From Candidatus Woesearchaeota archaeon (GTDB taxonomy: Archaea > Nanobdellota > Nanobdellia > Woesearchaeales > JAFGLG01), in the NCBI GenBank assembly GCA_016928155.1, contig JAFGLG010000011.1, forward strand, positions 1-52,639: a stretch of DNA of 52,639 nt, read 5' to 3'. The position numbers were made by a program, and so were the translations under genes. Position 1 is the first letter of the stretch, and the number at the start of each line of letters is the position of its first letter. Shown here one piece after another: positions 18,569 to 48,777 of the stretch. The notes under the pieces are model-generated. The model made no database searches. It was not told the DNA's origin and saw nothing but the letters and a program-made list of their open reading frames with translations.

Positions 18569-18639
18569 TTTAGGAGCTGGAGTGATCTGCGGATCTTGGG
18601 CAATCAGCCCGGGATCATGATGGTCTATATGATGATGGA

Positions 18640-19554: not shown

Positions 19555-19555
19555 A

Positions 19556-21726: not shown

Positions 21727-23724
21727 CTATAATTTCTTCAGCCTGTCACTGAGGTCCTGAAGCTTTCGTGCAATCTCATTCAATCTCTCCTCTTCATCTG
21801 AGAGCTTCCTTATCAGTTCTGGATAGGCCATGCTTGGCCTTGCTTCGGCTGCTCTGGAAGGTGACTGAACTTGATGCCCCTGGGCTTCAGGCTGCTGGTT
21901 TTGCCGGATGTTCTCTCGCTCGGCTGCCTCTCTTTCTATGACGACATGATGCTGCCCGGATTGCTGCCCGGATTGCTCTGCATGCCCGGTAAAGGATCCC
22001 CTTTCATCATATTCCTTGCCTGTGAACCCATCCATAGGCATGATTTCCTCTTCTTTGATGTCCAGCTGCTGCAGCACCAATGAAGGGTTCTTGTAGTACA
22101 GGTTGATCATCTTGGTGAATTCCTTGAAATTGATTATGTGCCTCTTCAGCATCCTGCCGAGGACTTCTGCCCTGATGGCCATCTCCTTGGACAGCTTCTC
22201 GACAGGTATCCCTGATCTCTCTGTTATCCTGTTCAGGACCACTGAGGCATTGCTGAATCCGAAAGTGTCATTTGCGGGGTCCCATTCGACAAACGTGTTG
22301 TATTTGACCTCACCGTTTGGTTTCACGTCAATTATCTCATTCAGCTGGGTCATCCTCCTGAAGTTCTTCTCCCTGCCCTTGACATGCGTGGTCACGCAGA
22401 CTATGTCGAGTGATTTTACCAGTGATGCGCTGAGGTTTATCGGCGGTGTCTGGAGCCTCTGTGTCAGTGTCTCCACAGATGCTGCGTGGAATGTTCCGAA
22501 AGAGGGGTGTCCTGATGCCATCCCCTGGAACAGGACCGACGCTTCCTGCCCCCTGATCTCTCCGACTATCACATAGTCAGGGTTCTGCCTGAAGCTCTCC
22601 TTGAGCAGGTCGAATAATGATACGCCGCCGTATGTCTCTCCGAGTATGTTCGGTATGCCGTATCCCAGCCTCACGACTGCAGGGAGCCAGTTCTCGTGCG
22701 CCAGGTTTATCTCTCTTGTGTCCTCTATGGAGCAGACCCTCGATTCTGGGGGTATGAAATACATGAATGAGTTGAGGAAGGTCGTCTTTCCCGATCCTGT
22801 CTCTCCGACCACGATTATGTTGAACTTGTGCTCTATTGCGAGCCAGATGTATGCGAAGACAAGCGGCGTCGATGTGCCGTAGTTTATCAGGTGTATGGGA
22901 GTCCATGGGTTCTTCGTGAATTTCCTTATCGTGAATGTGGGCCCTCTTGTTGTCACATCCTCGGAATATGTGGCATTCACCCTGGACCCGTCTGGCAGTG
23001 TGCCGTCGAGCAGGGGCCTTGCGAAGCTCACATACCTTCCGCATTTCTGCGCAAGCTTCTCCACGAAATTTGTGGCCTCGTCAAGTGTCTGGAGGGTGAC
23101 ATTTGTCCTGATGTTCTCATATTTCCTGTGGACTATGTATATCGGCGTCTTTATTCCGTTGCACTCTATGTCCTCTATGAAGTAATCCTTGAGCAATGGC
23201 TCGATGAGGTTGAGCCCGACATAGTCCCTGTAGATGTAGTACATGGCCTTGAGGTATGTCTTTTTGGTCACTTTCGTGCCGAGCTCTGTGAGTATTGACT
23301 GCACATTCTTCTCCAGATAGGATATGACCTTGTGCTCCATCAGGGAGTTGATGAAGCTCACGTTTATCATCTCCTCGAGGGCGAGCTTGATGAGTTTCAG
23401 GAGCTGCTGTTCTGTGTCGCTCAGCTGGGGCTCCTCCACCTCGTATAAGAGCTCGTTCTGCGTATTGTCCCAGTAGATGTGGGCATATGCATATGGCGCT
23501 ATGAGGGGATATCTTATGTCTATCTCTTTCTTGTTCTCGAAAGGAGGTATGGAGATGAGCTTTGGCCTTAGGTCAATCTTGAAGAATGTGTGGAAAGTCT
23601 GTATCCCTTCTTCTTTCTTCTTCTCCTTGGATGTTATTATCATCTCTGCTGCTTTGGGGCCTACCTGCTGTTCCAGTTCCTCCTGCTCTTTCGGTTTCTT
23701 GTCCTTGAAGAGGATTTTGCTCAC
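21727..23724 (-). CDS. tadA: Type II/IV secretion ATPase (TadA/VirB11/FlaI-like) with coiled-coil tail
   Basis: The 665-residue motor of the pilus system. The N-terminal domain (about 1-270) precedes a VirB11-type core: Walker A 'Gly-Glu-Thr-Gly-Ser-Gly-Lys-Thr' (307-314), an Asp-box 'Cys-Ser-Ile-Glu-Asp-Thr-Arg-Glu', Walker B 'Val-Ile-Val-Gly-Glu-Ile-Arg-Gly' (about 385-392) and His-box 'Gly-His-Pro-Ser-Phe-Gly-Thr-Phe-His-Ala' (about 405-414). All catalytic positions are intact. Beyond about residue 560 is an extra tail: a Gln/His/Gly-rich flexible stretch and then a Leu-based heptad region to the C-terminus, not usual in this family. GTG start, overlapping the upstream stop (TGA) region. 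Energises assembly of the pilins encoded just upstream with the two T2SSF proteins downstream. Confidence 0.9.
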   Translation of the reverse strand: MSKILFKDKKPKEQEELEQQVGPKAAEMIITSKEKKKEEGIQTFHTFFKIDLRPKLISIPPFENKKEIDIRYPLIAPYAYAHIYWDNTQNELLYEVEEPQLSDTEQQLLKLIKLALEEMINVSFINSLMEHKVISYLEKNVQSILTELGTKVTKKTYLKAMYYIYRDYVGLNLIEPLLKDYFIEDIECNGIKTPIYIVHRKYENIRTNVTLQTLDEATNFVEKLAQKCGRYVSFARPLLDGTLPDGSRVNATYSEDVTTRGPTFTIRKFTKNPWTPIHLINYGTSTPLVFAYIWLAIEHKFNIIVVGETGSGKTTFLNSFMYFIPPESRVCSIEDTREINLAHENWLPAVVRLGYGIPNILGETYGGVSLFDLLKESFRQNPDYVIVGEIRGQEASVLFQGMASGHPSFGTFHAASVETLTQRLQTPPINLSASLVKSLDIVCVTTHVKGREKNFRRMTQLNEIIDVKPNGEVKYNTFVEWDPANDTFGFSNASVVLNRITERSGIPVEKLSKEMAIRAEVLGRMLKRHIINFKEFTKMINLYYKNPSLVLQQLDIKEEEIMPMDGFTGKEYDERGSFTGHAEQSGQQSGQHHVVIEREAAERENIRQNQQPEAQGHQVQSPSRAAEARPSMAYPELIRKLSDEEERLNEIARKLQDLSDRLKKL

Positions 23725-24449: not shown

Positions 24450-25025
24450 TTAGCAGTATTTCCAGTATCTCACATCGATATAATTGTCAGTGCAGACCAC
24501 AGGCTTATCGATGTCAGATGTCTTCACCATCGCATAGATCCTTAAAAAATCAAGCTCAGTGATATCGTGGGCCTCTGAAACAAGAGCTAGACTATCGCAT
24601 CCTTCTGGGAGGTCTGCATCAAAATCCAAGGGTATGCTTATTTTTAGTGCTCCTCCGGTATCAACTTCTTCTATATGGGGCAGGTCGCATACATTCCCGT
24701 CATTATCTACAAACCTTACCTTGAATCCTTCCAGTTTCTTGTACTGTCCGTTTTCGACTGTGAAGGTCACATTCCACACATTCTCTGTAGAGTTGTCTAT
24801 GCAGAATTTTGTATCGCCATCTATCTGCATGAAATTCCATTTCACATCCTGTCCGCAGGCTATCTCGCCGGCTGTCCTCTCTTCGGCTCCGCCGACCTGT
24901 TCTTTTACATATCTGTTTACCCAGTTCATGATGAGCGCTCCCACTACAACAGTCAGCACCATGAGGAGCACTGCTGCGATGAGCGGGGACACACCACGCT
25001 TGTTCATCCTTTGTTTTGTTTTCAT
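24450..25025 (-). CDS. Archaeal type IV pilin (DUF1628-type N-terminus)
   Basis: A 191-residue pilin. The N-terminus 'Asn-Lys-Arg-Gly-Val-Ser-Pro-Leu-Ile-Ala-Ala-Val-Leu-Leu' is the classic archaeal pilin/archaellin signature, with cleavage expected after Gly. The body is beta-rich with three to four cysteines. The start is taken as ATG 25025 because GAGGTGA lies about 9 bases upstream; a GTG at 25037 is also in frame but overlaps that ribosome-binding site. Member of a run of four pilin-like genes ahead of the ATPase. Confidence 0.8.
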   Translation of the reverse strand: MKTKQRMNKRGVSPLIAAVLLMVLTVVVGALIMNWVNRYVKEQVGGAEERTAGEIACGQDVKWNFMQIDGDTKFCIDNSTENVWNVTFTVENGQYKKLEGFKVRFVDNDGNVCDLPHIEEVDTGGALKISIPLDFDADLPEGCDSLALVSEAHDITELDFLRIYAMVKTSDIDKPVVCTDNYIDVRYWKYC

Positions 25026-25074
25026 TCTCTCATTCACCTCGTTATTGATATTATTTTGATATTATGATATTTCA

Positions 25075-25590
25075 TCATCTGCAGGGCAGGAAATCACCCT
25101 GCTCTATGGTGAGCGCCTTTTCCTTGCAGATTATGTCCTCATCATTTATCTTGACAATGGGGCTGAGTTTTATCTGCAATAGGTCATCATTGAGTATTAT
25201 GTGGTTGTAGGTGTAGTTGATGTGTTTAACTCCTGCTTTCGGTATCCCGCTGTCAGGCAGTGTTATCACATCTATATTGTCTGATTCATCCACGATTATC
25301 ATGTGCAGCCCTTGTATGTCCACATTCGGCCCGTTCTCCACCATGAGATCCAGGAGATGCTCTGTGCTGTTGATGCATATCTTCTTCCTCCCGTTGACTT
25401 CATAGAGCCTTATGCCGACATCGAGCTTGCATTTGTATTGTGTCTCTGTTGTGATGTCTGTCCTCTCTATGCTGCTTTTCGTGTACTGCCTTCCCCAGTT
25501 CATGACTATCGCGCCTAGTGCTATTGCGAATGCTATGAGAAGTACTGTTGCTATCAGCGGGCTGATTCCTCTTTTTTTCATGTTTTGCAT
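25075..25590 (-). CDS. Archaeal type IV pilin
   Basis: A 171-residue pilin with N-terminus 'Lys-Lys-Arg-Gly-Ile-Ser-Pro-Leu-Ile-Ala-Thr-Val-Leu-Leu-Ile', nearly the same as its downstream neighbour, then a unique C-terminal beta domain with cysteines. GGGTG about 8 bases before the ATG supports the start. It probably arose by duplication with the 191-residue pilin: the signal and helix are conserved while the exposed domains differ. Confidence 0.8.
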   Translation of the reverse strand: MQNMKKRGISPLIATVLLIAFAIALGAIVMNWGRQYTKSSIERTDITTETQYKCKLDVGIRLYEVNGRKKICINSTEHLLDLMVENGPNVDIQGLHMIIVDESDNIDVITLPDSGIPKAGVKHINYTYNHIILNDDLLQIKLSPIVKINDEDIICKEKALTIEQGDFLPCR

Positions 25591-26082: not shown

Positions 26083-26114
26083 GTGTACCAATTTGAGGTT
26101 CCTCTGCAGTCCCC

Positions 26115-26247: not shown

Positions 26248-29200
26248 TCATTCATATTTGATTATTTTCTGTGCTTCTTCGCTTCCTGATGTCTTTAATT
26301 TTACATAAACAAGATTTTTACCATCAATTTTTCCTTTTTTCTGGAATATAAGGTCAAATCTTCCTGTATATAACTTAAGGTCATCTGATTGAAGCACGAT
26401 ATCCTCATATTTCAGCAGTGTCGTCATTGGGCAGATGTTCTGGTCAAGGGGAAGCCCGAATGATGGATATGGAAGGTCCATGAAGCTTTTGTCCATGAGA
26501 TAGCTGGCACGCTTGATTATGTTCGAATTCGGGTTGCTCATTAGTATGAATGAATTGTCAAGGCCATCTGTCTCTATTCGTATGTTTTTACCTTCTGGTT
26601 TGCCTGCTGCATCCTGGGTCTCGCTTGCCAACCCGACCTGGTATCCGCTGTATTTCAGGACAGCTATCTGCCCGCAGGGTTCCTCAGTGCATGGCGGCAG
26701 TGGTGTCCCTTGAATTATGGAACTGTATCCTATGTTCAGCTTAAGCACCTGGAGTTCGCTGATCCCGCAATGCTCATTTTCTGATGGATCATAATTCACA
26801 GTCTCAGTGCCGGGATATGACACAGTGATTTCAAGTTCTCCCTCTTCTTCAGGCATGCTGAATCTCAGCATGTAAAGGCCGAGCCCAAGGTCAGTCACTT
26901 TCACAGGCACTGCCTGCCCGTTGATAGCTACATTGAAACTCTTCAGGCCTCCGAGCCCGACATTCTCTCCATTGTAGAACGCAGTCACATTTATCATGAT
27001 CTCCAGGGACTGTCCGGTGTAGTAATCGCCCTCGCTGTCCGGGCAGAATACTGTTATGTCTGTCGGCGAAGCATCAGGCATTATCGTGAAATTTGTTTTT
27101 TCTGTATCATTGTACATGCCCACATAGTCTGTGCAGTTGACCTGGTATTCATAGCTCCCCTGCTCAAGGAAAAGCTTGTCCCTGTGGTCCCTGTTCCCTG
27201 TTATGCTGAATGGGGTGAGATTCTCCTCATCAGGCTCGATCTGCCTGAACTCGCAGATCGCAGGTTCGTTTGTTGTGACCCAGAATTCCGGGTTCTCGTC
27301 CACAACAAGGCCGCGCGGTGTTATTATCGTCACAGCAGGCGGGCCTTTGTAGATGTCGATGTTCACCCTGAAATGCGCTGTGCCTCCCCAGTTTCCTGCC
27401 TTGTCCTGCGTCTTTATGTGGAAATACCATATCCCGTTCCTTAGTGTGTATGTGGCATTCCTCTTCTTGTCATATTCCCCCTGCTGGCCTTCATGGATAT
27501 TGTCAGGTATCGTGTCATTGTATCCGTCAAGTGTATAGCTGTAACCATATATCCCGCTGAGTTCATCCTGACCTGTCCAGTTGATTGTGACTGTGGCATC
27601 CTCATACCATTCAGACTGGTCAGGGTGTGTGGTGCTGCTCACATTGACATAAGGATTCACTATGTCCAGGATGATGCCGTCGCTTTTTCCAAGGGTCTCG
27701 AGTGATGCTGAGTTGACTGATTTCACATGGAATGTGTAATTGTGCCCGTGATCGAGCTCGAATGGGCTTGCTGATGAGTTAACTACTGTGACCTCTGTGC
27801 TCTGCCCGACATAAACCCAGTTGGTTATATTGAGTCCCTCTGTCACATCCCATACCCTGAACATGTACACCAGGGGTATATGGAGGAGCTCTGATTCCCT
27901 GTCAGTCGAGTTGTACCAGTATGCATGGAGCATGGTGGCATTGTTTGTGTAGTCCCCGTCATCGACGACAACAGGCGGTGTCGGGGGTGTCGGGTCAAGG
28001 CCTGCTCCGCTGAAGTTGTACCATATCGTATCGCTCGTCTCTCTGACATTGCCTGCCCTGTCGCGCACATATAGGAACACTGTCTTCTCTCCGCCGCCTT
28101 CGCTAAGCTGCCAGAGCTTTGTGTTTGTGCATTGCTCCCAGCTCGATGTGCTTGAATGCAGGATTATGTTGGTGCTGTTCGGTGAAGCGACAGATGCGTC
28201 TGATCTTGAGATATCGCCCCTGAATCTCAGGTCTGTGCCCATTGTGTCGAAGATGAGTGTCTGTCCTGGCACAATAGGTTTCCAGTCTGCTCCGTCATTG
28301 TTTGATACATGATAGTCTATCTTCCCTGCCGGCTCTGTGTACTCGACTTCAAGATCCTCGAATATGATGTCTCCTGCAGTTTCTGAATATGCGAAAAGCG
28401 GTATGTCGCATGGGTCGAATGCACAGTCACGCAGATATCTCTGGAGATTATATGAGATGTCCTCTCTTTCGCTGCCCTCATATGGTCCTGTCTTGGTCCA
28501 GATTATGCGCTTGTCATATTCATAACCCATCTCTATATGGGGATTTGTCGGTGTCCTTGTCTGGTAGAGCCTGAATGCCATGTCATGTGTCGCATTCTCT
28601 ATCTGATCGCTCCCGTTAATGTAGAATAGCCTTGTGTTCGTATTGTTGTCGTTGACGATACGGGGAGGCTGTTTAAGTCCGGTATCTTTATCAGGTGTTG
28701 CATTGTTGACTATATGATAGAACTTTCCCTTTGCCAGTGCTATGCTTTTTGGGAATTCAATCTCGCACCAGTTTGATTTGCTGCAGTAGTAGTCGCTGAT
28801 TTCGATGATTTTCATGTTGACATCCCTTATGCTGATAGTGCCCTGTCCTCCTTCATTAGGCCCATCTTCAAGATAGAGGCTTACTCCGTTTATCTCTGTA
28901 TCGCTTGTGATATATATCCGCTCTGCCACAGCATCCCAGTCATCTGCATTCACTGTGCCATTTTGGGTATCGCCGGTCTGCACCCATATCTTGTATTCTC
29001 CATTGTTGTTGTTTGCCCCGGTTATGTTCACTTCTGCGCGGTCTATCACTATCTCTTTGGGAAGCCTTATGTAGCCTGTCAGCTTTCCTGACCTGTGGAA
29101 CCTAAGCGTTTCCGCAGTTCCGCCGTCTGCAAATCTTGTCTCTATCCCCAGGGCCCCTGGTATGTATTGGTCTGCCGACAGCTTGACTGATGCCACCCCT

Positions 29201-32200
29201 TCAGGGATGATTATCGTGGATGATGTGAAATTCCCGCTTATGTAGCCGTTATTTAGCCTGAGAGTGTCTCCTATCATTGACACATTCTCTCCTGTGAGGT
29301 TATCATGTCCGAGATGGATGCTGTATTCCCTGGTTATCCGGGAATTGCTTACCCTGCAGTCTCTTACTCCGCTCATGACTGAATTGTTCTCGACATCCTC
29401 GAAGTCCATCTCCAGTATCACGCTTCTTGTGGCTGTGACATTGGGGTTTGTGGATTCGAAACCAGGCACTCCGAGGTTTGATATCGTTATCCAGCCGTTG
29501 GGCCTTGTGTTGTCGAGCATGACTTCAGCAGTGCTTAGTATATAATTACCCATCGTGTCTGACACATTTGCAGTGAGTGTCTTGATGCCGTCAGGCTGTG
29601 TGTTGTTGAGGCTTATTGTGTGGTTGCCTTTGTAGACTGAATTCCTGTCAGGGTCAGTGAGAAGTACAATCGGCGCAGGCCCTGATTCAGGCGCATCTGC
29701 ATCGCTCACATTCACAAGGACGCTGTAGTCCAGTCCATTGCCCCTGTATGTCATGTTCATCCTGGTGCCGTCCATGACATAGTATGGCTCGACAATGAGC
29801 TCTCCGAGCGGGAATGAATTGTCTGTCCTCACGAGTATCTGCCTTGAGTATCCTAAATTGCCAAGATGGTCATATGCGCGGACCTGCAGTGTATGTGCGC
29901 CGTCATTGGCCAATGTTGTGTTCCATACATGATAAGCACCTATATTGAAGAATGTGTCTCCATCTATTGAGAGCTGGACACGTGCCACATCACCTGGACC
30001 TGCATCTGTTGCATTATAGGTTATATTGACAAGCCTGCTCAGGTACTGATCAGGGAAAGGATAGGTTATATTGATTTCAGGCGGTGTATTGTCCACATAG
30101 CATGGGATAGAATGGTCGCTGTATGTGTTTCCCATGGCATCTTTTGCTGTTGCGCGGACCTGCATGAGTCCGTCATAGACTGTTTTTGTATCGAGATTCA
30201 AGCTCCAGTTGTTTGCCTCTTTTGTCGTGTACCCGAGTGTGCTGTATTCCAGCTGGTCCTGTGTGTATTCGAAGAGTATTGATTCTGTGTCTGATGCAGT
30301 GCCGTTCACATTGACTGATACTGTGCCTGTTATTGTGCACAGGAGAGGTGAGCCGAGAAGATGGATCGGTTCAAGGCTCACATTTGAGAAAGAGGGGTCT
30401 GTCCTGTCTATTGTTACCGGATGCTCAGTATCATTTCCGATGTAACCGCCGAGCTCGTCAAATCCATCTGCCTGTATTGTATAATCTCCGTCTGGGAATC
30501 CTGATATGTCCCAGAAGAACTCCCAGTTGGGCTCATGCAGCCACCAGGTGACATTCTGCAGGCCTGTGATGTTCAGCGATACATTGTTTGTGTTGCCCGG
30601 ACCTATCACTGTGACGGTTATATTATCATTCATGACAATCCCGGATAATGGATAGATTATTGTTATTGCCTCTGGTGTATTATCTACTGTAAATCCGAAT
30701 ATTTCTGAATATGCCTGATTGTCCTCAGTGTCATTTACCCGGAGCTGAAGTGTGTGCCAGCCATCACCATAGTTTCTTGTATCCCAGGGGTTTGTCTCAT
30801 TTGGTATTGGTATCCACCCTGTTGAGTCGATATTCCATTCCCATGTATCCCAATCCACTCCCGCTATGTTGTCTGTTGCGGAATATTCTGCTGAAATCTG
30901 CCCTGCAATCAGTGTTCCCGGGACAGGATTTGTCAGTGTTATCTGAGGTGGTGTGTTGTCGATTGCCAGGTCTGTCGCGTTGCTCTCCCCCATGTTCCCT
31001 GCGCTGTCATAGAGCAGCGCTCTTAATGTGTAAAAGTTTCCGTCAGGCGCTTCTGTCGTGTCCCACATCACCTGGAATGGCGCTGCATAGTCTGTCTCGA
31101 TAGGCAGCCAGTTTCCTAATCCTTGCCTGTATTCGAAAACTGCCATCTGCGTGTCTGGACTTGCTTCGCTGACTGCTATTGATTCAGTATGGGACAATAT
31201 AGGACCGTCAACATTCAATGATCCTGTTGGATCGGTCGTGTCCTTTATCACAATCACTGAATCCTCGCCGAGCTTGCATGGCCATATGGGCTGATACAGG
31301 CAATACCATGGATAATTTCCTGGAAGGAAGCGGTATGCTTTTGCAGTTATCTCATAGCTCCCGTCTTCTAGGCTTGTTGTATAATGAATATATTCCCAGA
31401 TGTCCCCTGATGTATATAGCTCTATTGAAGCCATATGGGTGGTGTTTATGGTGAGGTTTATCCATGCTGCATCATGCGCAATCATCTTGATGAGGACCTC
31501 ATCCTCGATATAAGAATGATCACCTGGCTGTACAATCAGGACTCCGGGAGGGGTATTATCTATCAGGACCTCGACGCTGTCATATCCATAGTTGCCTGCT
31601 GCATCCTTGACTCTCATTGTCACCTGTAAGGTCATGTCAGGCCATTCTGTGGTGTTCCATTCATGCCTTGACTGGGGTATGTTGTTTGCTGGCTTCCATT
31701 CTGCTCCCTCGCCTATCCTTATTTCTGCAGAATTTGAAAGTGCATCCCAGGAAAGCTCATAGGTTATGTTTATCACACCGAACACTATCTCAGTGGCACC
31801 AGGGCTTGTTATGTTGATTTCAGGCGGCCCTGAATCAAGTATTATATCATATATCGTGATGTTTGTGTTGTTTGCGATGTCCCTGACTTGGTAGTGTATC
31901 TCCTTGGCACCGTCATCAGGTCCGAGATACCATACTCTCTGGGATTCGCACGGCTCCCAAGCCCATCCTTCAAGCTCTGTTGCATTATGCCCGTATCTGC
32001 ATCTCTTCTCATCTGTCCTGTCAGGGAAGATTGTATCCAGATTATCAGAGAAGTCAAGCTCAAGATTCACGAACTCTGTGTTGGAGTAAGAAATTCCGAG
32101 ATACACCAAGGCAGATGGCACTTCTATTGATGCATTTGGTTTTATGTTATCAAGATATATCTGTTTTTGGATGTTTAACCCGCTCCCGAATCCTGTATCT

Positions 32201-32931
32201 GCAAGGACATTTACGGTTTTCCATTCGTCAGGCGATCCAAGCCCAGATGAACCCTGTGTATATACCGCATCATGTGCAGCCTGATCATATCCTGTTCCCT
32301 CATCATTGAATTGGAGGGGTTCGGTTCTGGAACCGGACCATTGGATTGTGCCTGTGACATCATATCCGATATCTGCTCCATAATATCTCTTGAGCAGGAA
32401 AGTGTTGTTGTTGAACACATCAGGCTCGATGACGAGCTGGCCTACTGAGACAGGAGGTGCCTCTGCGCATATCTGCCCTATCTGGTATGGCCCGAAATAT
32501 GTCTGCCCCTTGTGTCTTACCCTTCCTGATATGAGCATCCCGTCTTTCATGTATGCTCCGTAGATCTCCAGCGATGTGCATGGAGGTGAATATGATGTGA
32601 AATCAGTGTTCTCGATTGTCGAGAAGGATATGTTTGATCCTCCGGGTATGACTGAATTGTTTATGAAAGAATCAAGGCCGTAGGTTGTATCGCCTGGATT
32701 CGTGATAGCAGAGCTGAATATCTCGACATTCATCATGTGTGCCATGTTGACATCAGATGACCCATTGCAGTAGCATCCGTGAGGATACAGCTCCGATATG
32801 TCCATGTTATCAGTATAGATGCATGAATCATCTATATGGCACTCTCTTACCCAGGGCTGGGCTTCTGTAGGTCTGGCTGAGATGAGCAGTATTGCGATGA
32901 TGCATGTCCAGAATATCATCCTCTTTTTCAT
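26248..32931 (-). CDS. Giant (2227-residue) secreted Ig-repeat protein, putative pilus-associated adhesin
   Basis: Starts with a signal peptide ('Lys-Lys-Arg-Met-Ile-Phe-Trp-Thr', a hydrophobic core, then Ala-Gln). The ATG at 32931 has GAGG 5-6 bases upstream and follows the previous stop by 7 bases; an ATG 19 codons earlier is less likely. Residues about 20-130 hold a Cys/Asn-rich segment ('Cys-Tyr-Cys-Asn-Gly-Ser'). After that come many Ig-like beta domains whose joints read 'Asp-Asn-Thr-Pro-Pro-Glu-Ile-Asn-Ile-Thr'. One domain is interrupted by an insert of about 400 residues (about 1195-1597, bases 28140-29345). FN3-like domains and a conserved C-terminal block ('Pro-Ser-Phe-Gly-Leu-Pro-Leu-Asp-Gln') follow. 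Many Asn-x-Ser/Thr sites. No C-terminal membrane helix, so it is probably held by the pilus or by its partner. Confidence 0.8.
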   Translation of the reverse strand: MKKRMIFWTCIIAILLISARPTEAQPWVRECHIDDSCIYTDNMDISELYPHGCYCNGSSDVNMAHMMNVEIFSSAITNPGDTTYGLDSFINNSVIPGGSNISFSTIENTDFTSYSPPCTSLEIYGAYMKDGMLISGRVRHKGQTYFGPYQIGQICAEAPPVSVGQLVIEPDVFNNNTFLLKRYYGADIGYDVTGTIQWSGSRTEPLQFNDEGTGYDQAAHDAVYTQGSSGLGSPDEWKTVNVLADTGFGSGLNIQKQIYLDNIKPNASIEVPSALVYLGISYSNTEFVNLELDFSDNLDTIFPDRTDEKRCRYGHNATELEGWAWEPCESQRVWYLGPDDGAKEIHYQVRDIANNTNITIYDIILDSGPPEINITSPGATEIVFGVINITYELSWDALSNSAEIRIGEGAEWKPANNIPQSRHEWNTTEWPDMTLQVTMRVKDAAGNYGYDSVEVLIDNTPPGVLIVQPGDHSYIEDEVLIKMIAHDAAWINLTINTTHMASIELYTSGDIWEYIHYTTSLEDGSYEITAKAYRFLPGNYPWYCLYQPIWPCKLGEDSVIVIKDTTDPTGSLNVDGPILSHTESIAVSEASPDTQMAVFEYRQGLGNWLPIETDYAAPFQVMWDTTEAPDGNFYTLRALLYDSAGNMGESNATDLAIDNTPPQITLTNPVPGTLIAGQISAEYSATDNIAGVDWDTWEWNIDSTGWIPIPNETNPWDTRNYGDGWHTLQLRVNDTEDNQAYSEIFGFTVDNTPEAITIIYPLSGIVMNDNITVTVIGPGNTNNVSLNITGLQNVTWWLHEPNWEFFWDISGFPDGDYTIQADGFDELGGYIGNDTEHPVTIDRTDPSFSNVSLEPIHLLGSPLLCTITGTVSVNVNGTASDTESILFEYTQDQLEYSTLGYTTKEANNWSLNLDTKTVYDGLMQVRATAKDAMGNTYSDHSIPCYVDNTPPEINITYPFPDQYLSRLVNITYNATDAGPGDVARVQLSIDGDTFFNIGAYHVWNTTLANDGAHTLQVRAYDHLGNLGYSRQILVRTDNSFPLGELIVEPYYVMDGTRMNMTYRGNGLDYSVLVNVSDADAPESGPAPIVLLTDPDRNSVYKGNHTISLNNTQPDGIKTLTANVSDTMGNYILSTAEVMLDNTRPNGWITISNLGVPGFESTNPNVTATRSVILEMDFEDVENNSVMSGVRDCRVSNSRITREYSIHLGHDNLTGENVSMIGDTLRLNNGYISGNFTSSTIIIPEGVASVKLSADQYIPGALGIETRFADGGTAETLRFHRSGKLTGYIRLPKEIVIDRAEVNITGANNNNGEYKIWVQTGDTQNGTVNADDWDAVAERIYITSDTEINGVSLYLEDGPNEGGQGTISIRDVNMKIIEISDYYCSKSNWCEIEFPKSIALAKGKFYHIVNNATPDKDTGLKQPPRIVNDNNTNTRLFYINGSDQIENATHDMAFRLYQTRTPTNPHIEMGYEYDKRIIWTKTGPYEGSEREDISYNLQRYLRDCAFDPCDIPLFAYSETAGDIIFEDLEVEYTEPAGKIDYHVSNNDGADWKPIVPGQTLIFDTMGTDLRFRGDISRSDASVASPNSTNIILHSSTSSWEQCTNTKLWQLSEGGGEKTVFLYVRDRAGNVRETSDTIWYNFSGAGLDPTPPTPPVVVDDGDYTNNATMLHAYWYNSTDRESELLHIPLVYMFRVWDVTEGLNITNWVYVGQSTEVTVVNSSASPFELDHGHNYTFHVKSVNSASLETLGKSDGIILDIVNPYVNVSSTTHPDQSEWYEDATVTINWTGQDELSGIYGYSYTLDGYNDTIPDNIHEGQQGEYDKKRNATYTLRNGIWYFHIKTQDKAGNWGGTAHFRVNIDIYKGPPAVTIITPRGLVVDENPEFWVTTNEPAICEFRQIEPDEENLTPFSITGNRDHRDKLFLEQGSYEYQVNCTDYVGMYNDTEKTNFTIMPDASPTDITVFCPDSEGDYYTGQSLEIMINVTAFYNGENVGLGGLKSFNVAINGQAVPVKVTDLGLGLYMLRFSMPEEEGELEITVSYPGTETVNYDPSENEHCGISELQVLKLNIGYSSIIQGTPLPPCTEEPCGQIAVLKYSGYQVGLASETQDAAGKPEGKNIRIETDGLDNSFILMSNPNSNIIKRASYLMDKSFMDLPYPSFGLPLDQNICPMTTLLKYEDIVLQSDDLKLYTGRFDLIFQKKGKIDGKNLVYVKLKTSGSEEAQKIIKYE

Positions 32932-32938
32932 TTTTTCC

Positions 32939-33457
32939 TCATGATATGAACAGCGCCTTGACCTTGTATTTCTCTTCAGGCATCTCAAATCTGTATTCCA
33001 CGTCGTCCTTGACGAGTTTTACATACCCTGTTCTTTTTATAGTTTTTGAATCTGTCGGAGCCATGACCCCGCATTCTATATCATTGAATCTGTCATCTTG
33101 GTTCTCCTGGTACACTGTGAATTTCCCGGCATTGTAGTTGCGGATGATCACCACATCAGGTGTGAACAGCAGGTACACCATCTCGAGGTTTGTCTCTTTC
33201 TGCCTTGCGAAATCCAGGAACTGCCCTGTGAAATTCTGCAGTCTCTCATCCGGATCCTCTTCTTCTATCAGCGCTGTGTCGACAGCATATGCTGCTTCTG
33301 TGACATAATTGTCAGCCACATGTTTGATGTCAACTCGGGGCTTTGTGACTTTGATCATGGGATAGGCGAGTGCAAAGAGGACACCTACGAGTATGACTGA
33401 CATGAGTATGTAGAACTGCCCTTTTCTGTTGGATGTTCCTGTCAGGGATCCCATCAT
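32939..33457 (-). CDS. Pilin-like protein between the two giant genes
   Basis: A 172-residue protein whose N-terminus reads 'Asn-Arg-Lys-Gly-Gln-Phe-Tyr-Ile-Leu-Met' followed by a hydrophobic helix, a class III (prepilin) signal with Gln at +1. The body is mixed alpha/beta with a single cysteine and an acidic 'Glu-Glu-Glu-Asp-Pro-Asp-Glu' loop. Its ATG overlaps the TGA of the 4168-residue gene and its own TGA lies 7 bases before the 2227-residue gene, so all three are translated as one unit. A natural reading is a minor pilin that connects the giant proteins to the fibre. An ATG one codon further in is an alternative start. Confidence 0.75.
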   Translation of the reverse strand: MMGSLTGTSNRKGQFYILMSVILVGVLFALAYPMIKVTKPRVDIKHVADNYVTEAAYAVDTALIEEEDPDERLQNFTGQFLDFARQKETNLEMVYLLFTPDVVIIRNYNAGKFTVYQENQDDRFNDIECGVMAPTDSKTIKRTGYVKLVKDDVEYRFEMPEEKYKVKALFIS

Positions 33458-36400
33458 ATTATCCTCACGCTCATGTTGATTGTCCCGTTGCCTGTGATGC
33501 CTTCATTCCTCACTATGATTGTGTATATGCCCTCTGGCGCTTCCTGGTCCCCGGACATCTCTGTGCCTGCATAGCTCAGGGTTGCCACGATCATGCATGT
33601 GTCCTGGTTAAGCGGAAGCCCGAATGAGGGGAAGATGAGCCCCTCGAATGTCTTCTCATTTATGTAAGCCATCCTCCTCGGTATGCTGGCTGATGGGTTT
33701 GTCATGAATATGTAGTTGTTGTCCAGCGCACCTGATGTCAGCTCGAAATTAGCATTGGCTGCATTGTCGTCGTCTGTGGCAAATCCGAGTATGGCATAAT
33801 TCTCTTTGCCGTATACATAATTGTCTATCTCTTCAGGATCAAAGTCATCTGGAAGTTCGAAATCATCCCCTGTATAGGCCATTGTCAGGGAGAAATCATC
33901 CACCTCAAATTCCTCCTCGAGATCGCCTGTGCCTCTAACTGATATGTTGAGGTAATATGTCCCTTCTTCTTCTGGTGCAGTGAAAAAAACATCATAATAG
34001 CCACCGCCGAGGTCCTTGTATGTGTTATGGTACCTTGTGCCGCTCACTGTCACTAATATGTCATCTCCCAATCCCCCTATGCCGATGAACCCGTAGTCTG
34101 TGCTGTATCTCACAAGGAGCTTCAGTTTCATCCTCTGTTGGACATAGTACGGTGGGTCGAAGTTGAGTATCTCCACAAGTGTCGGCACAACATCTGATAT
34201 GACGCTGAAATTCGTGTAGTTCCAGTCATTGTGATGGCCGGCATAGTCTGTGCAGTTGAACCAGAACTGGTAGTCATCATCATCCATTTCCCCCAATTGG
34301 GACTCGTGTATCCTCCCTCCTGTTGTCAGGAACTCCTGATAAGCATACCCCCCGACAGGCAGTGTCTGGTTGAATGAGCAGACCGCATCCTCATTTGTCT
34401 CGATATGCAATAGCGGTGTCTCGTCTGCTGTGACCCCTATGGGCGAGATGAGTGTGATTATCGGTGGCCCGAGCTCTGAATCTGCCATCACCCTGAAGTG
34501 CTTTGTATCGCTCCACCTGCCTACATTGTCCTGTGTCTTTATGTGGAAATAGTATATCCCATCATCCATGTCATATGTTGCATTTGTCTTGAGATGGAAC
34601 TGTCCCATTTCTCCTTCAGGTATGTCATCAGGCTCTGTGTCATTCGTATGGTCGAATCTGTAGCTGTATGCATATATTCCTGACTCAAGGTCATTCCCCT
34701 GCCAGTGCATCAACACTGTTGTGCTGCTGTAATATTGGCTCGGGTCAGGATGCGTTGTGCTCCAGAGTGAGATGTCAGGATTCCTCTGGTCAGAGACTAT
34801 GCCGTCTGAGAATCCGGATATGCTCTCAAGCCCTGCTGCATTGACTGCCTTGACCTCGAATGTGTATTCATGGTTGTTCTCGAGATCCAGTCCTGAGACT
34901 GTCACCTCATTCTCAAGCGTATCTGTCCAGTCCACGATAGCATCAGGCACAGTCGATGTTCTCTTCAGCACCACATTGTCGATGAAGACCTGTTCATTGT
35001 TCGGATTTTCAAGCAATATCCTATAATATGTTTCCGAATCTGTTGAGAATATCATCTCGACTGTCTCCCAATCAGTATTATGCCCAATCTCATATTCAGA
35101 TATGGGCGAACTGCATCCTGTGTCTAGAGGGTTGCAGATTTTCAGTCTGAGATCCTGGATTGGTGATTCATTGTACTTGTAGGTTATTGATATGCTATGC
35201 TCCTCTTCTTTGAGCTCTACATCCTGATATATCTCGCCTTGGGTGAGCATCTGGCTGAATTTTCCATTGGAAGAATCGCCTGATCTTGTTGCATTGGTGC
35301 CTGGGCTCTTTGCCCAGCCATCCATCACCCCATTCAGGTCTGAATCAAAGGTCTCAAAGCCGGGGTTGAGAATGAGATTCTCAGTTGTGTCATGTATCCT
35401 GAACCTGTAGCTCAGTGGCAGATGCAGCAGTTCCTGCTCCCTGTCAGTAGAGTTATACCAGTATGCATGCAGTGTGTCTGATGAGTTCGTGTAATCGCCG
35501 TCATCCACCACAATCGGCTGTGTCGGTGGTGTCATGTCCATGCATGCGCCGCTTGGGTCATAGTAGATTGTGTCTGATGTTGTGTAAATATTGCCGGAGA
35601 CATCTTTTATCTGGTAGTACACTATCTTGAGTCCGGTACTGTTGCTCAGCTGCCATGCTTTTGTGTCAGTGCATGCTGACCATACATTGAGCATATTATT
35701 GTATCCGACATAGACTCCGTGAAAACCGACCAGGTCTGCTGAACCGTCTCCATCAAGGTCACCTAATCCCATGTTTCCATATATATTGTTTAATCTCGCT
35801 TCATCATACCTCGGCCAGCTTGAAACCTCATCACCATTGTTGAAAAAGAATATGTAAGCTGGACTGAGTGGAAAAGAATAAAGTATGATGTCTTTTCTCT
35901 TGTCATTGTTCAGATCTGCAAAGGATACTGATCTGGTTTCGCTGGGTATATTGATGTTGTATATAGTCCAATCCTTTGGATTGGGAAAGCCATTATTTTT
36001 ATAGACTCTCAGATAATAATCATAACACGTGTATGGAAGAGTATGTGAGGTTACAGCAAATATATCACTTGATCCGTCGTTATCGTAATCCTCAAACTGG
36101 TGTTCATACCACATTCGACTGGCAAAAGGAAGGGTATCTATGAGCATATGATGATAATTCACTGGATTCAGGCTATCTATTATTGTGTAATATTTTAATT
36201 TATCTCTATTATGTCCTTGGATGATGTTTATCTTTCCATTCTCTTTTGTTATGTCAAGATTTGACATGTACCAGCCCCGCCAGCTAGATTCAGCAAAGGG
36301 TAAACATTCAGAATCTGTCATACCAGTGAGGATATTTATCAGAGAATCTATCTGGTTTCTTTTCATGCTGACCAATGGATTCTTGATGGCAATCCTCTGC

Positions 36401-39400
36401 CAGTTTGAGGGATTACTGTCGCCGTTATTGATTAGGTAGTAATCTGAATCATTCACTACCAAATATTTTATGTATGCTGATGTATTGACATAGATTCCGG
36501 CATGGGCTCTTGCATAGATATCAAGATATCCATCATCGTTCTTGACGAATTTTGCCTTGTAAAGGAAGTTCGAGCCGCTGTCCAGGCATGTCCCGATTGA
36601 AAAGTTGTAATAAGCATATGAAACCCAGAAAACATAGCCATTATCCACATTGTATTCATGGCATCCTCCGAAAGAGTGTTTTTCCCAGCTGACTCCATCA
36701 TAGGATTTCCCTTTGTTTTCAAGCAGCACCAAGGAATCATTTCTTGTTGAGAATGAGAATCTTGAGGTTTTTGCATACAATACGTCAGTTTTCCCGTCAT
36801 TGTTGTAATCGCCGATATCAAGGGAGGATATATGCCCTCCGAAATTCTGGTTGACCCTGTCAATTCCTGGCCATGATGGCAGTGTGATGTTCGCAAAGTA
36901 TAGTTCCTGCTTTGGCCATGTCCTGATATCAAGTTCTCCATTGTTGTAAATTATATACAGGCCGACCAGGTCATAAAGATAATCAAAGAAGAGGGGAGGT
37001 TTCTTTTCGTTATGGAAAACATTTAACAATACATCATTCTTCCCGTCATTGTTGAAGTCATGCACAAAAACATCATATATGTTCACATCAGTCATGTTCC
37101 AGAACATTCCGCTCATGTTGTATAGCGTGACTGTGATTGCGTTTTGGCCGCTTCCCATCACGACTTGTGTGGCATTCTCATCCTGGAAGGGTCCGTTGCT
37201 GTACCTGCACATATCAACTCCGCTCATGCCATTGTTGTCTATGTCATGATAATCCATCTCAAGGTTGACTGTGGGTATTGCAGTGCATTCTTTCTGCCCC
37301 GCCATCCCGATGATATCAATGGGATTTATTGTGATTGTGCCATTTGGCTCTGTATTGTCAAGGAAGGCCTTGGCTGAGAATGTGTTTGATATTGGATCAT
37401 AACCTGTTGAATCATCACCATACCACATATAGTTTGTGACAGTGGCATAGACTGTTTTTTCTCCGTCAGGATTCACATTTTTGGTTGATATGGAATGGTG
37501 GGCCTCGTATATGCCCCTGTTTTCTGGATCAGAAAGAATGATAGGGTTATTGGCGATGCTGTCCAGGGCTGAAATGTTGGCCTCGACTTCAAGCCCCAGC
37601 CTGTCCCCTATGAACCTGAGTTTTATCATCATTCTGTTCTTCACATAATATGGCTCTATTGTGAATTCGCCGATCGACATCTCATTATCCACTCTTCTTG
37701 TTATTATCTGTGAATACCCTTCATTTCCGAGCTTGTCCTTTACTTTCATCTGTATCTGGTGCTCTCCGTTGCTTGACAGGTTTGTGTCCCATGGATGATA
37801 ATAGTGCCATCCGAGGAGTACACTGATCTCTGTGTCATTCAAGAGGAAGTATTCGGTGACATCAATGAAATCCCCACCATCAAATGATATCATGTATGTT
37901 GTATTGTCTATGCCCACACCCGGATCTGTGCTGTTCTCGACAACATGGACTAATCCCCTCAGGAGATAACCGAATCTGTAGACTCTGGATGATTCATAAA
38001 AGTATACATCAATCCCTATCTCAGGCGCAGTATTGTCAACATTAAACCGGTTTGAATATGCAGTGAACGTTGCTCCTGCCGGATTCTTCGCAGTCGCTCT
38101 TAGCATGTATGCACCATCATCTACAGTATTGGTATCAAATGCAATCCTCCACTCCCGCCCATCCTTTGTCATGTAGCCTATTGTCCTGTATTGGATGTCA
38201 TCTTCTGTGATCTCAATGAGTATTGAATCAACAGTGTCCTCGACATTCTCTGCAGTTATGTTTATGATGCCTGCAACCCAGCTATCGATGGTGCTTATGC
38301 TGAAGTTTGGATGTAAGTCAATCCTCACATTTGTTATTGTATCATTCCCTATATACCTCCTGAGTGAATCATAACCCACTGCAGTGAGATTATAGAGGCC
38401 ATCCCCACACACATCGACATCCCACATTGTCTCCCATGGTGCATCCTCAAGCTCTGTGTCAAGTGCAGGGCATCCGTCAAATGCGAGTGTCACATTCTTC
38501 ATGTCATCCGGTCCCAAGACCTGGATAAGCGCATCCTCAGATAACACATCATTTGAATGGGGCTGTGTGATTGTGACGCTCTCTGGTGTATTATCCACCA
38601 TGAAGGGTGTAATGTCTGATTCTCCGATGTTGCCCATCCAGTCTCTTGCAGTGACCTTGACATGGTGGTCGCCCTCTCTCATCAGTCTTGTGTCTATCTC
38701 ATATTTTCCGAGGTCATCGCTGAATATCTTTTTCACTTCATCTGCTGTCAGCGACCTGTTGTATAACCTGACATTGTCTATTGACCCTTTGAAGAAGCTG
38801 TGGATCCCGCTGTTGGCGCCTGCCCCGATGACTGCCTGGTCAAGCAGGTCTGCATTCACATACTCGGCTCTGGTCACATTTTCATTCATTTCTCCGTCTA
38901 CATACATTGATATGTGCGTGGAATTCCAGACTCCGACAAAATGATGCCATGCATCATTGTATAGTGAACTAGGATCTGATCGTGCAGTGTAATCGACCCC
39001 ATTTACATTGTGCCTGATCACTATCCTGTTGCTTATGGTCTTCCTGAGCGCGATATAATTCTGCAGGCTGCCGGATATTCCTGCCTCAAATATCCCGTGT
39101 ATCGAGCTGTCTGAGGATATGCTTGAGGAAAGATAGACCCATGCTTCCATGCTTCCGTTTATTGTGTTGATGGAAGGCACAGGTGATATGTTGATATACG
39201 ATGTCCCGTCGAATCCGTATGCGCCCATGCTGTCATGTCCTCCGTCTGTGGCATATGATGCATTGATGACTGTTCCATGATATTCATTTCCTGAGAGATC
39301 ATTTGTTGCCCTGCCTGTTGACCACCCATTGAAAGGCATGTTCAGCACAAGTGACTCAGCAGGAAGCCCCTGGCTCACTCCGTCGATGTAGAACTCATAG

Positions 39401-42400
39401 GATCCCGGATCAATACCTATGCCTGCATCAGTCGAGGATGCTGTGATTGTTATATCCCCATGCAGGATATCATTCAGTCCAGGATAATTTATGTCGACTT
39501 GTGGCCCGGAATTGTCCACGTTTGTCTCCCTGATCTCTGTATTGACCTGTCCGCCGAACTCTGTGCCATTGCCTCTTATATAATAATGGCCATCATCATA
39601 TTCTCTTGTGTCCCATGGCACCATGAATGGATCATTCCCATCTCTTCCGATTGCATAATAATCAATATTGTTGTGGGACGCTTCAAAGGACACTTCATCA
39701 AGGTCTGTCTCAAGTACTTCTATATCATAAACTTTGTTTATCCAGGATGGCATCTCAAATGATAGGTTCGCATGGTTATCAACAGTCACTTCCACTGTAT
39801 CTTCTCCTATCTTCCATGCCAGGAGTCCTCCAAGCAGTCTTGCCCAGGCAACTGCTCTTATATTATGTGGCCCGTCATTCACGCTTGTGGTGTCCCATGT
39901 GTAGTTCCAGCCTCCATTGCTGTCATAATCCTGATAGACAGGTCCGCCGCTGTCAATGAAGAAATCAACCCTCACAGCATCCCCGTCCACATCTACGAGT
40001 ATCTCCTGCTCTCCTGACAGTGTGGATCCGTTTTCAGGCCTTATTATCGTAACAGCTTGTGGGACATTATCCACAAGAACATAGACTGTGTTTGAGTACA
40101 CATAATCTCCCCGCGGATCAATGTCTCTTGCCTGTATCGTGTGTGTGCCGTCCCAGAGAAGGGTTGTGTTCCATGTGTATTCTGCAGTTTCAGATTGGGG
40201 CAATATGCTTGCGTCTGCCGGCATCCACTCCCCTTCATCTATGCTGACCATGGCATCTTCAAGTATATCATCTGAAGAGATGTTCACAACATATGTGCCG
40301 TTTATCTTCTGCCCCGGCACCGGATCGTTTATCCATATCTCCTCAAGCAGATGTGTGTAGTTTATTGTGTCATTTGTTACATTGATGTTCCCGACATTGT
40401 CCTTGACAAGATACCAGACTGTCTTGATGCCTTCTCCCTGCTCAAGCCACCACACCTTGTTTTGTGTGCATGGCTCCCAGGATACTCGCTCATCGATCTT
40501 GGAATTCCCGTACCTGCATTCCTTGACTCCATTTTCGTCTGAGTATGCCAGCTCGAGATTCACCATGAGGCTTGTTGTGTGCTCATCACCGCCATTGATT
40601 ATTATCCCGGCGCTGGGGTTGGTATTGTCTATTGTGAGTGATGCATTCGCTGTGTATGGATTGCCGTGGATATCGTTTATATTCGCTCTTATCGTGACTT
40701 GGCCGTCGTCGGTTTTTGTGACTTGTGCTTCTGATGTGTATATGGCATCATCCTCGGTCTCATCTGGTGCGATTCCGTTGTCCGAGAGTATTATGGGAGA
40801 ATTGGCGAATACCTTGCTGGCTTGGTCAGCCTTTATCTGCACTGAATGATTGAGTCCTGTGCCGAAATAGTATATTGTCACATTATCATCATGCTTCGCT
40901 AGGTCTGGAACAAACGCCAGCTGGCCGGAAGCTCCGGGTGGCATGCCCTCGCATATGCTGTCGATGCTGTAAGGGCCAATGTATGTTGTTTTGTTATATA
41001 TCACTCTGCCGGATATCAGCTGCCAATCCTGTATCTTTGCTCCGTATACATCGAATGACCCGCAGAAGTCTGTGTCCTCTGTCAGCGAGAATCTCAGGTT
41101 TGAGTCATTGATGTCTGAATTATTGATGAATGAGTCTGTTGCTGTGGTGTTGATGATGACAGAATCTATGACATGCACATTTGTCAGTGTGGAATTGTAT
41201 ATCACTGAATTCAGGCACACGCAGTCATGCGGGTAATAGTCATTCTCCTTGAACAGGAATGAATCGAGTATAGTGCAGTTCTGGATGTGGCATCCGATTA
41301 TTGTCGAGTTGTCGCAGTATGTCTCATTTATTATGTCTGTGTCTATGAAGCAGTCTTTTATCCTCTCATCGCAGTGCCACTTGTCGCCATTGTAGACGCA
41401 TCTTCCCGGCCAGCTTGTTCCGCTTGCCCCTGATGAGGTCCATAGCTCCCTCAGGCCATCTCCTTCGTTTTTTGGATCCTCGATGCAGTAATCCCCTTCT
41501 GAAGACTTGACGCATCCGCAGTCTTCATCCTGATCAAATAGGGTTAGACCCTCCAAACCCGTGTTGTATGGATATGGAAGGTTGCTCCACCTGCTGCCCC
41601 TGTCTCCAGCTGAATAATCCTGAAGGCAGCAGATAGGGCCGTCAGGCTTGTTCTGAATGACACTGTCAGGTTCGATCACCCACATGAACCACCTGTTGTG
41701 CCAGTCATCTATGTAGATATTCCCTGATGTCGCTGTGTACACCCCCGACCATGGCCCGGTCTCTGATGTGTCTTCGTCAGAGTATTCCAATATCAGTTCT
41801 CCGTCGGCATAGAATTCTATTCTTTTCCCGTATACATACCCATAATGGTCTGTCAGGAGGCTGACTGCCAGCCTTCCCTGGGTAAGGTTCATCTTGTCTG
41901 TGATGTCTATGCCTGATGTTGTGCTTGTCAGCACTATGCCTTGTTTTCTTAGGCTGATAGTGAACGGATTTGATGATGATGTCTTCCTGAATGCGAGCAG
42001 GTATCCGCTGGTTAATGGCCAATCATCTTTTGCTGCCCTGTTGAATGTTATCCCGCTCGGTGTTGAGGGGTTGCATGGATCCATTGCAAACTTGAAATCT
42101 ATCACAAAAGTGCTTCCTGTATTACGCTGAGACACCATCCTTTGATTCTGCATGTGGAGAACTCCGTGCCCCTCTCCTCTTATCTGCAGTATCTCAGCTG
42201 TCCCTGTACCTGTATGATTCCATTCGCTGAGGTTCAGATTATCGAAATTCTGATAGAATACTCCGCTAGGTGGCACATCATAGATGCATGCGCCATTCTC
42301 TGTATAATCCCCGCCATGGTTTGCCTGCCAGTCGCACGAGTCTCCTGGATGGTCAGTACAGTCCAGGTTCAGATTAGAAGTGCCTGATCCTGATTCCCAA

Positions 42401-45400
42401 TAAGTATCATATGATGTCTCAGAGAAATTATCGCATACAATACTATTTATGCACACCCCGTCCTGGAAGAAATGATTGCCGTCCTGCCATGTGATGTCGC
42501 ATGCATCGCTTGGATTGCACCCTGATATCACTTCATCTATTGTTATCTCGCATTCATTGATGTCATACCTGTCTGAAGCCATATCATTATCGCAGTCCAT
42601 GCTTGTCATTCCAGTATAGCAGATATTCTTGTCATTATTGACGCAGTATCCTTCATGGTCAAAGTCCCCGCCTGTTGCAGGATTTCCTTCGCATATCTCT
42701 CCCCCGAACACACTTGCCTGCACGCAGGATACCTCGAACCTGTGCTGGATCATGTCATAAGCGACATGCCCTGTCCCCTTGCAGACTGATTGGCCTGAAC
42801 TCTCATCATACGCGCAGGTGCCTGTCTGCCATGGCATTGACCCATTGTAGCTTCCGGAAAGTGCCCTGTTGCATGCATCCCCGTCTCCGCCTTTATTATT
42901 TGGATAATCTGACTGGTACCATGCCCCTAATTCGCAGGTGGAATAGACAAGATCAGGAGGAACTGATATATTATTGATGTCTGTGTAGTTCATGATTACT
43001 GAAAGATTATCATTTATTATATTGAAATAAGGATTGCTGTCTCCGTCTATTACAACCATTCCTGTATCGCAGTATTTGTTCCCGTCTGAGCGGTTTATTG
43101 CGCAGTAGCCATTCTGTTCGAAGTCTCCTCCTGATGTCGCATCTGAGTCGCACGGGCTTCCGGCCATTGCATCCTGGCAGCTTTCCACGAATTGTTTTGT
43201 GGTCCAGTCATATGCGACTTCTCCGCTCTCATCGCAGTAATACCCTGATATGCTGTTTACGCATGTCCCATTCTGTCTCCAGAAATATCCGTCGTCATTA
43301 TGTGTTGTGCATGCATCCCCTGGCCTGTATGAACAGTTCACATAGACATTATCCTCGCCGATCCGGCATTCTCCTCCTTCTTTGAGGTCCCTCACATCAG
43401 GAGTGGGTCCTGCTGCACTGTTATTGTATTCATCCTCATTATAGTCGCAGTCCATGACTGTTTCATCTGCATCATCGCATAATTTGCTTCCCACACCTTC
43501 TATTATTTGCCATGCGCAGAATCCATTGTGCTCAAAGTCCCCTCCTGTTTCCGGATGGTTTTCGCACATGCTTCCCGACACTGAATTTAAGCATTTGGAC
43601 TTGAAGGTATAGTTTGATGGGTCTCCATCTTGGTAATCATAAGAAACAGGATATCCTGCGCCTATGCAGTACAGGCGCCAATTATTATAGTCATCAACTC
43701 CATAAGCCACTGTCCCTGTCTGCTCCCAATAGCCATGATTTGCATTCCAGTCCCCATCATCTTCTCCTGCCCATGCACCTACAAAATGATCGCAGGCATC
43801 TCCTGCATTGTGGCCGACTCCGAATGTCCTGTCGTTTTTATATGCTATATCTGTCCCGACCTGACATACTCCTCCGTCAGTCAGCTGTGGATTGCCTTCT
43901 GAGGGGTGCTGGTCTTGCATACTATTGCAGTCCATCACTATATAATATGCTTCTGTGTTCTGGTAGCTGTGGCAGTCAAACAGCACTGAATTCCGTGCAT
44001 TCCTCGCGCAATATCCTGAGTAGAAGAAATTGCCGTAATCATCATCATGAGTATCTGCATTCCCGTCTGAATAATCGCACATGTATCCATATCTTGCATC
44101 TGTGCATCCGACAGAGAATACTCCATTATGCAGGACTGCATCATTCGATCTGCATACTCCATTCACCCATATGCCGTCCTGCTTGAATCCCTTGTCAGTG
44201 TTGCAGTCAGGATTTGTATCTATTCCTGCTTCGCAGGCCATTCCATCTGCTCCTGTACCGCAGTCATAGACATGACCATCATAAAGAGATGGTCCATTTA
44301 CCTCACTGAGCTGCAGGCAGGTGCTCGGGTCTCGCTGCCAATACTGGATGCCTGCTCCATTGCAGTCTATCGTGACACTGTTTGAGTGAGAACAGCAATT
44401 ATCAGAGATGCAGATCCCGTCTGAGCCCCATATAGGGCTGCCGAGGTCTGGAGAGAAGCAGACCCATCCATCCTCACCACCGCTGCATGTCGCACCGCAA
44501 GTCCGGGCCATGCATCCTGTATAATCCTCAGAAGTATACATAGCACCATAATCTATTGGACAGCATTCACCGCCTACGCACATATCATTCGCATTGTAAT
44601 TACATTCACCCGTGGGATCACCCCCCATATAAGCCATACATGGCTCTCCGTCCCTGATGCAATAATCGCGAGTAGCATATCCATCGACACATTCTCCGCC
44701 CTGGCATGTCTGGTCTGGACCGCAAGAATCTACCTTATAGCAATCTTGTATTCCGTTGCATACACAATTTTCATACCATCTTTCTGTTCCACTGCAGAAG
44801 TAATATGGTCCAAATTCCATGCAACCAGGGCCTGAACCGCAATGATGACAAGTTGTGTCAGCATCCCATTCTTGTCCGAAAAGATTTTCGTTAGAGCAGG
44901 TATACCCGCCGCTTTCATCTGCAACGCATATCCCATTGCAGTATTCGTTGCTTGTCTCGCTTTGCGGGTAGATCTGGCAGGCTCCGCCGTATGAATCAGT
45001 ACAGCCGCAGTTGCCATCGATGCTCCAAGAGCCTGTCGGAGATGTCATACAATCGTCAACATCACTGCACGAATCAAGCACCACATCATCTTCGCAGTAA
45101 TCATCGCCTCCTGATCCGATCATGCAGAACACTTTGTCATCTTCACCACTGTTCTGGCCAGGGGTCCTGTAATTTAAGAGACTGCAATAAGTAATCCCAT
45201 CATAATCTGTTGTCCAGCATTGTGTCGTGTCAAATACATCTGAACCGGTATCATCGCCGAGGCAGTTGGCTTCTGAGCTGTACGCTGCAGCACCCGCACG
45301 CCAGCACCATTGGCCTGGAAATGGAGCGCAGTTGTTGCACACTCCTTGTGAAGCATCTGGAGCTACACAACTGCCTCCTCCAGTATTACAATAGGTTCCA

Positions 45401-48767: not shown

Positions 48768-48777
48768 ATTTATAAAT
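48768..48777 (-). promoter_or_regulatory. tRNA-Ser TATA box overlapping the stop codon of the LAGLIDADG gene
   Basis: ATTTATAAAT lies about 30 bases before the 5' end of the tRNA. Its TAA is at the same time the stop codon of the upstream endonuclease gene, so the endonuclease gene abuts the tRNA promoter exactly. Confidence 0.55.

Follow-up and report, generated by a model that had tools for sequence, protein, structure and literature searches.

A split Ig-like domain carries different inserts at one loop in two paralogous giant archaeal proteins

We identify an Ig-like domain interrupted by a complete other domain in two giant stalk proteins, P0001 and P0002, encoded on the 52,639-nucleotide stretch of Candidatus Woesearchaeota DNA analysed here (the window). 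The interruption falls in the same loop of both, and by sequence comparison the two inserts are unrelated. Among homologues in the order, this loop is mostly empty or holds one of several kinds of domain. We propose that the split Ig-like domain presents exchangeable binding modules from a pilus-linked archaeal adhesin, a reading that we regard as fairly probable.

Results

The source genome (1.48 Mb, 99.7% complete) was the sole member of its family in the family search. Archaellin/type IV pilin N-terminal domains, FlaI/FlaJ-type proteins, and an archaeal RqcH mark it as archaeal, and its size together with its one named ATPase relative suggests a place among small-genome (DPANN-like) archaea. 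Both giants are encoded on the minus strand: P0001 at 26248..32988 (2227 aa counted from an internal Met at 32931), with a Sec-type signal peptide recognized by eye, and P0002 at 33454..45960 (4168 aa). They are paralogues. Their alignment spans the entire P0001, and a tree built from the domain flanks (207 columns, 63 proteins) pairs them as sisters with a bootstrap of 99. P0002 has an extra N-terminal Cys-rich third that is not in P0001; long Cys-rich repeats and a possible concanavalin-like stretch lie there (41500-45960), again with no counterpart in P0001. Two further modules of P0002 are missing from its paralogue. A LamG domain (Laminin_G_3; 38701..39375, minus strand; Pfam and paralogue alignment) interrupts another Ig-like domain, and the FN3 domain holds a CBM_4_9-like module (34996..35388, minus strand; paralogue alignment), whose Pfam E-value of 0.005 is below the cut-off.

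A sequence-only reading of this DNA had proposed that an Ig-like frame recurs uninterrupted in both proteins and is opened at the same place in one copy of each. Profile searches recover the intact copies, of the same type as the split one, at about 31783..32091 in P0001 and about 40291..40602 in P0002 (both minus strand). The opened copies, at 28009-29502 and 35551-37359 on the minus strand, lie directly before an FN3 domain in both giants. In P0001, the N-terminal half ends in CRVSNSRI (29335..29502), the insert of 398 aa follows (28141..29334), and the C-terminal half runs from WEQC to TSDTIWYN (28009..28140). In P0002, the corresponding pieces are an N-terminal half ending in CRYSNGP (37189..37359), an insert of 502 aa (35683..37188), and a C-terminal half from WSAC to TSDTIYYD (35551..35682). 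The insert positions agree with the coordinates given in that reading. The four halves are supported by AlphaFold2 (AF2) models, and the P0002 insert by Pfam, AF2, and a fold search. Both inserts occupy an identical alignment position, the loop between the two cysteines of the 'CRxxN...WxxC' frame ('CRxSN' before it, 'WxxC' after it).

The AF2 models place three strands before the insert and three after it at matching positions in both proteins, with pLDDT mostly about 83-95 for the N-terminal half in P0001 and 84-96 for the best Ig blocks of both proteins. Because this strand layout matches on either side of the insert, the two insertion points are equivalent, as a structure-based check of the site had been asked to decide. 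The flanks were said to be alike and the inserts unrelated, and both parts hold: flank identity between P0001 and P0002 is 45% on the N-terminal side and 62% on the C-terminal side, whereas the comparison of the two inserts gives z = 1.1 relative to shuffled sequence, and BLAST of one against the other finds no match better than E = 1.8.

The two inserts differ in character much as first described. The P0002 insert, which had been read as about 500 residues of FG-GAP/VCBS-like repeats, matches the FG-GAP families PF13517 and PF01839 above the Pfam cut-off and contains about seven repeats by eye, probably forming a beta-propeller. AF2 models its outer blades mostly at pLDDT 70-90 and its middle blades below 50. 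A fold search with it returns beta-propellers on top, integrin alpha among them, with low TM-scores. Its GC content is 39.5%, compared with a mean of 47.4% in equally long windows, and is below that of every equally long window elsewhere in both giant genes; part of this may stem from amino-acid composition. The GC content of the P0001 insert is not deviant, and no repeats that could be recombination marks were found at the insert borders. We count the GC deviation of the P0002 insert in favor of the reading proposed here and the lack of border repeats against it. Within the order, the P0002 insert has no relative with an E-value under 1e-12.

The same fold search also returns propeller enzymes, aldos-2-ulose dehydratase and sialidase, and these hits favor the notion that the inserts are catalytic, degrading glycan or protein rather than binding it. 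We consider this very unlikely: no catalytic family reached its cut-off in the domain scans, and both FG-GAP and LamG are domains characteristic of adhesion proteins.

The P0001 insert had been called an unrecognised beta-rich block of about 400 residues, and it retains that description: Pfam offers no credible match for it, and PDB sequences no match at all. Across 371 genomes of the phylum it has no close relative and yields short weak matches only. Some of these, at insert residues about 58-105 and 262-336, resemble the two halves of a jelly-roll that recurs in archaea; the jelly-roll seems itself to be interrupted by about 150 aa, which would make it a nested insertion. Since AF2 gives the P0001 insert a pLDDT below 50, a fold search with it was uninformative; the P0002 insert is partly modelled.

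To survey the loop more widely, we built a profile from the intact Ig-FN3 junction, searched all 353 genomes of the order with it, and then measured loop lengths. Giant proteins of the P0001/P0002 family are present in 44 of the 353. The loop is intact (5-19 aa) in about 60 homologues and opened (229-575 aa) in seven; the 60 is approximate, as the protein of genome G207 is counted twice, from two stretches, and a few entries represent additional Ig copies of the same protein. Model-based distances across the opened loops are 229 aa in G014a, 356 in G236, 358 in G172, 401 in P0001, 504 in P0002, 571 in G014c, and 575 in G014b. Pfam assigns LamG to G014a, LamG with a DUF5122 propeller to G014c, and FG-GAP to G172 and G236; the G014b insert has no Pfam match and is 38% identical to that of G014c. 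By type, the seven are three FG-GAP inserts (P0002 and two f70 family members), a single LamG, two cases of LamG with nested DUF5122, and the P0001 block. In the nested cases, a DUF5122-type propeller sits within a LamG domain that itself sits in the Ig loop (L100:10782-12506 and L108:1371-3077). In G115, a kelch propeller lies one loop earlier, before 'CRYRNE' (L112:7718-10087), so the distance measured there is not that of the loop considered here; a second kelch stretch starts in the following FN3 domain. An alignment of orthologues had been suggested as a check on whether flanks persist while the insert changes type. Across families they do: the flanks are kept, and the loop is empty or holds FG-GAP, LamG, LamG with a propeller, or the P0001 block. 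As most homologues have an empty loop, the module is optional. The Ig-FN3 profile had no match among PDB chains, and scanning named genomes for the pattern of the flank alignment turned up no relative.

A second count, covering 92 Ig copies of this type, finds 59 of 66 intact and 7 of 66 opened at this position, and 26 of 26 intact at other positions. The opening at this position would not be a matter of chance, with numbers (7/66 vs 0/26) too small to be conclusive. The reading that any Ig domain of this type can open was set aside on the 26 intact copies elsewhere, under the same limit on the numbers. The two cysteines at the loop root (Cys1211 and Cys1620 in the P0001 translation, Cys2918 and Cys3430 in that of P0002) are co-conserved: with a misaligned opened copy (G236) set aside, 86 copies have both, none has a single one, and one (G062) has neither, carrying F and P instead. 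This pattern suggests a disulfide clamp between them.

The flank tree places the opened copies among intact ones. G172 and G236 pair with each other (bootstrap 93) inside the otherwise intact family f70 (100), and the three G014 paralogues group together (90) beside the intact G112 (85). By this branching there would be at least three independently opened lineages, or a larger number of losses. The sister relation of P0001 and P0002, combined with their unrelated inserts, means that their own lineage either saw at least one exchange or gained an insert twice. A single ancient insertion, mostly lost and otherwise diverged beyond recognition, would require no repeated gain or exchange, and the presence of FG-GAP inserts in two separate lineages (the window, and G172 with G236) is in its favor. 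However, the insert types are different folds, the opened lineages are nested among intact ones, and the P0002 insert resembles the G172 and G236 inserts weakly (z = 3.3), whereas those two, true sisters, score z = 33.8 with each other. We regard one ancient insertion as very improbable.

Not every insert in these proteins behaves in this way. A second insertion loop, in the C-terminal Ig domain, holds about 190 aa in every measured member of families f37 and f70 and 375-394 aa in G014, and is empty in P0001 and P0002 (examples at L084:3168-3740, L104:5901-6533, and L100:13104-14246). The stable length in two families indicates that inserts can also pass down unchanged and that exchange is not general; some inserts may be structural. 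The proposal of a swappable module is therefore upheld in part: insert type varies between families, with at least three opened lineages, but most homologues are empty and the second loop is stable.

These observations bear on another reading, in which a permissive loop takes up neutral or structural embellishments: the inserts would be spacers or stiffeners, drifting in and out and binding nothing. The many homologues without an insert are compatible with such a role, as is the constant insert length of the second loop across two families. Yet the inserts are complete domains of types used for binding, namely LamG and propellers, and it is at one loop that large inserts recur, copies of the same Ig domain elsewhere being intact. 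We judge embellishment without binding to be unlikely, and still the weightiest of the alternatives to a binding role.

The giants belong to the same cluster as archaellum/type IV pilus-type genes, in which a FlaI/PilB-type ATPase, FlaJ-type membrane proteins, and pilins with class III signal peptides occur together. Domain scans identify a T2SSE/FlaI-type pilus ATPase (21727..23724) and two T2SSF/FlaJ-type membrane proteins (18640..21442); two archaellin/type IV pilin-like genes (24450..25590) both match TIGR02537, all on the minus strand. Small pilin-like genes were recognized by eye at 23726-24445, 25600-26091, and 32939-33457. The window ATPase has close homologues in 64 genomes, including 41 of the 44 with giants (hypergeometric 2e-33, ignoring relatedness); ATPase and giants share a contig in 30 genomes and lie within 15 kb in 28. 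The only relative of this ATPase in a pattern scan of named genomes is distant (46% identity), on an Aenigmatarchaeota contig where no such Ig domain was found. A related beta-rich C-terminal domain with a 'PSFG' motif occurs in 41 of 65 proteins by a simple pattern, some of the 65 being ended by contig edges; we would guess that it holds the stalk to the pilus. Linkage to pilus genes is no proof that the giants attach to a pilus.

Several other features were noted. Frames of about 10,500-10,900 aa with the same scaffold lie near pilus genes in two genomes (G280:C29 and G350:C30; L074 and L109). In the window, an RqcH-like frame of archaeal type (17762-18814) aligns to the family model over its final 265 positions only. 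The N-terminus of this frame looks non-native and overlaps the FlaJ-type gene, so that we may be dealing with a truncated or split gene. An apparent fusion of two HIT domains (46652-47716) and a small LAGLIDADG-like frame (48770-49450) were recognized by eye.

Discussion

We propose that the split Ig-like domain offers a tolerant docking site in its central hairpin loop, which is probably clamped at its root by a disulfide. A whole foreign domain seated in this loop would keep its two chain ends on the stalk, with its body projecting sideways. The hosts are secreted giant Ig/FN3 stalks and are probably adhesins, displayed by or together with the neighboring pilus. Different lineages appear to have filled the loop independently, with an FG-GAP propeller, LamG, LamG with a nested propeller, or the beta-rich block of P0001, and in the source genome a tandem duplication would have yielded two stalks with different modules at one place. 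The likeliest role of the modules is to bind ligands carried by other cells or by surfaces, which would give the stalks a function in cell attachment.

A more far-reaching version is possible, and we put it forward tentatively: the clamped loop may be a dedicated exchange site at which pilus-linked adhesins of small-genome archaea repeatedly swap binding heads, nested capture included, and thereby set the choice of host cell. We hold it to be clearly less probable than the presentation of binding modules as such. For the question of how host-dependent small archaea recognize their partners, our data locate the exact loop of candidate recognition heads in a pilus-linked family found in 44 of 353 genomes of one order, with a single insertion point that appears to have been used repeatedly and independently.

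We found no description of this giant-protein family in the literature searched, which is weak evidence of novelty. Among known giant surface proteins, the SPEAREs of Nanohaloarchaeota combine laminin-G and other adhesion domains with protease and restriction-enzyme domains (PMC6642349). The proteins described here resemble them in giant size, in coming from a small-genome archaeon, and in LamG, present in P0002 only of the two. They differ in ending in a beta-rich domain and in being tied to pilus genes; Pfam and NCBIfam scans of the giants matched neither the SPEARE serine protease nor the type III restriction-enzyme domain. The P0002 insert is also comparable to the integrin propeller, with FG-GAP repeats bearing Ca-binding-like motifs and integrin alpha chains among its fold matches. 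Unlike that propeller, it is housed in the loop of an Ig-like domain in an archaeal stalk protein, and its TM-scores are low.

The closest parallel is with bacterial RTX adhesins, in which split Ig-like domains carry ligand-binding modules off the stalk, as in A. hydrophila AhLap, V. cholerae FrhA, and M. primoryensis MpIBP; the inserted module is often lectin-like, its ends meet at the stalk, and nested inserts have been described (PMC12077191, PMC10865825). Both systems share a stalk Ig domain interrupted by a complete module, and different modules on one stalk. We rejected an RTX adhesin identity for the giants, given that Pfam and NCBIfam scans matched no RTX families or repeats, the N-terminus is Sec-type by eye, and the operon context is archaeal. 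In contrast to RTX adhesins, the giants are unrelated archaeal proteins that adjoin an archaellum/type IV pilus-type operon, the two cysteines at the root of their loop are co-conserved, their inserts include FG-GAP, DUF5122, and kelch propellers, and one homologous loop appears to have been filled independently in several lineages. The RTX split-domain precedent, together with the lectin-like and propeller folds of the inserts, counts in favor of the binding-module reading, and the split-domain rule for spotting ligand-binding modules would thereby extend from bacterial RTX adhesins to archaea.
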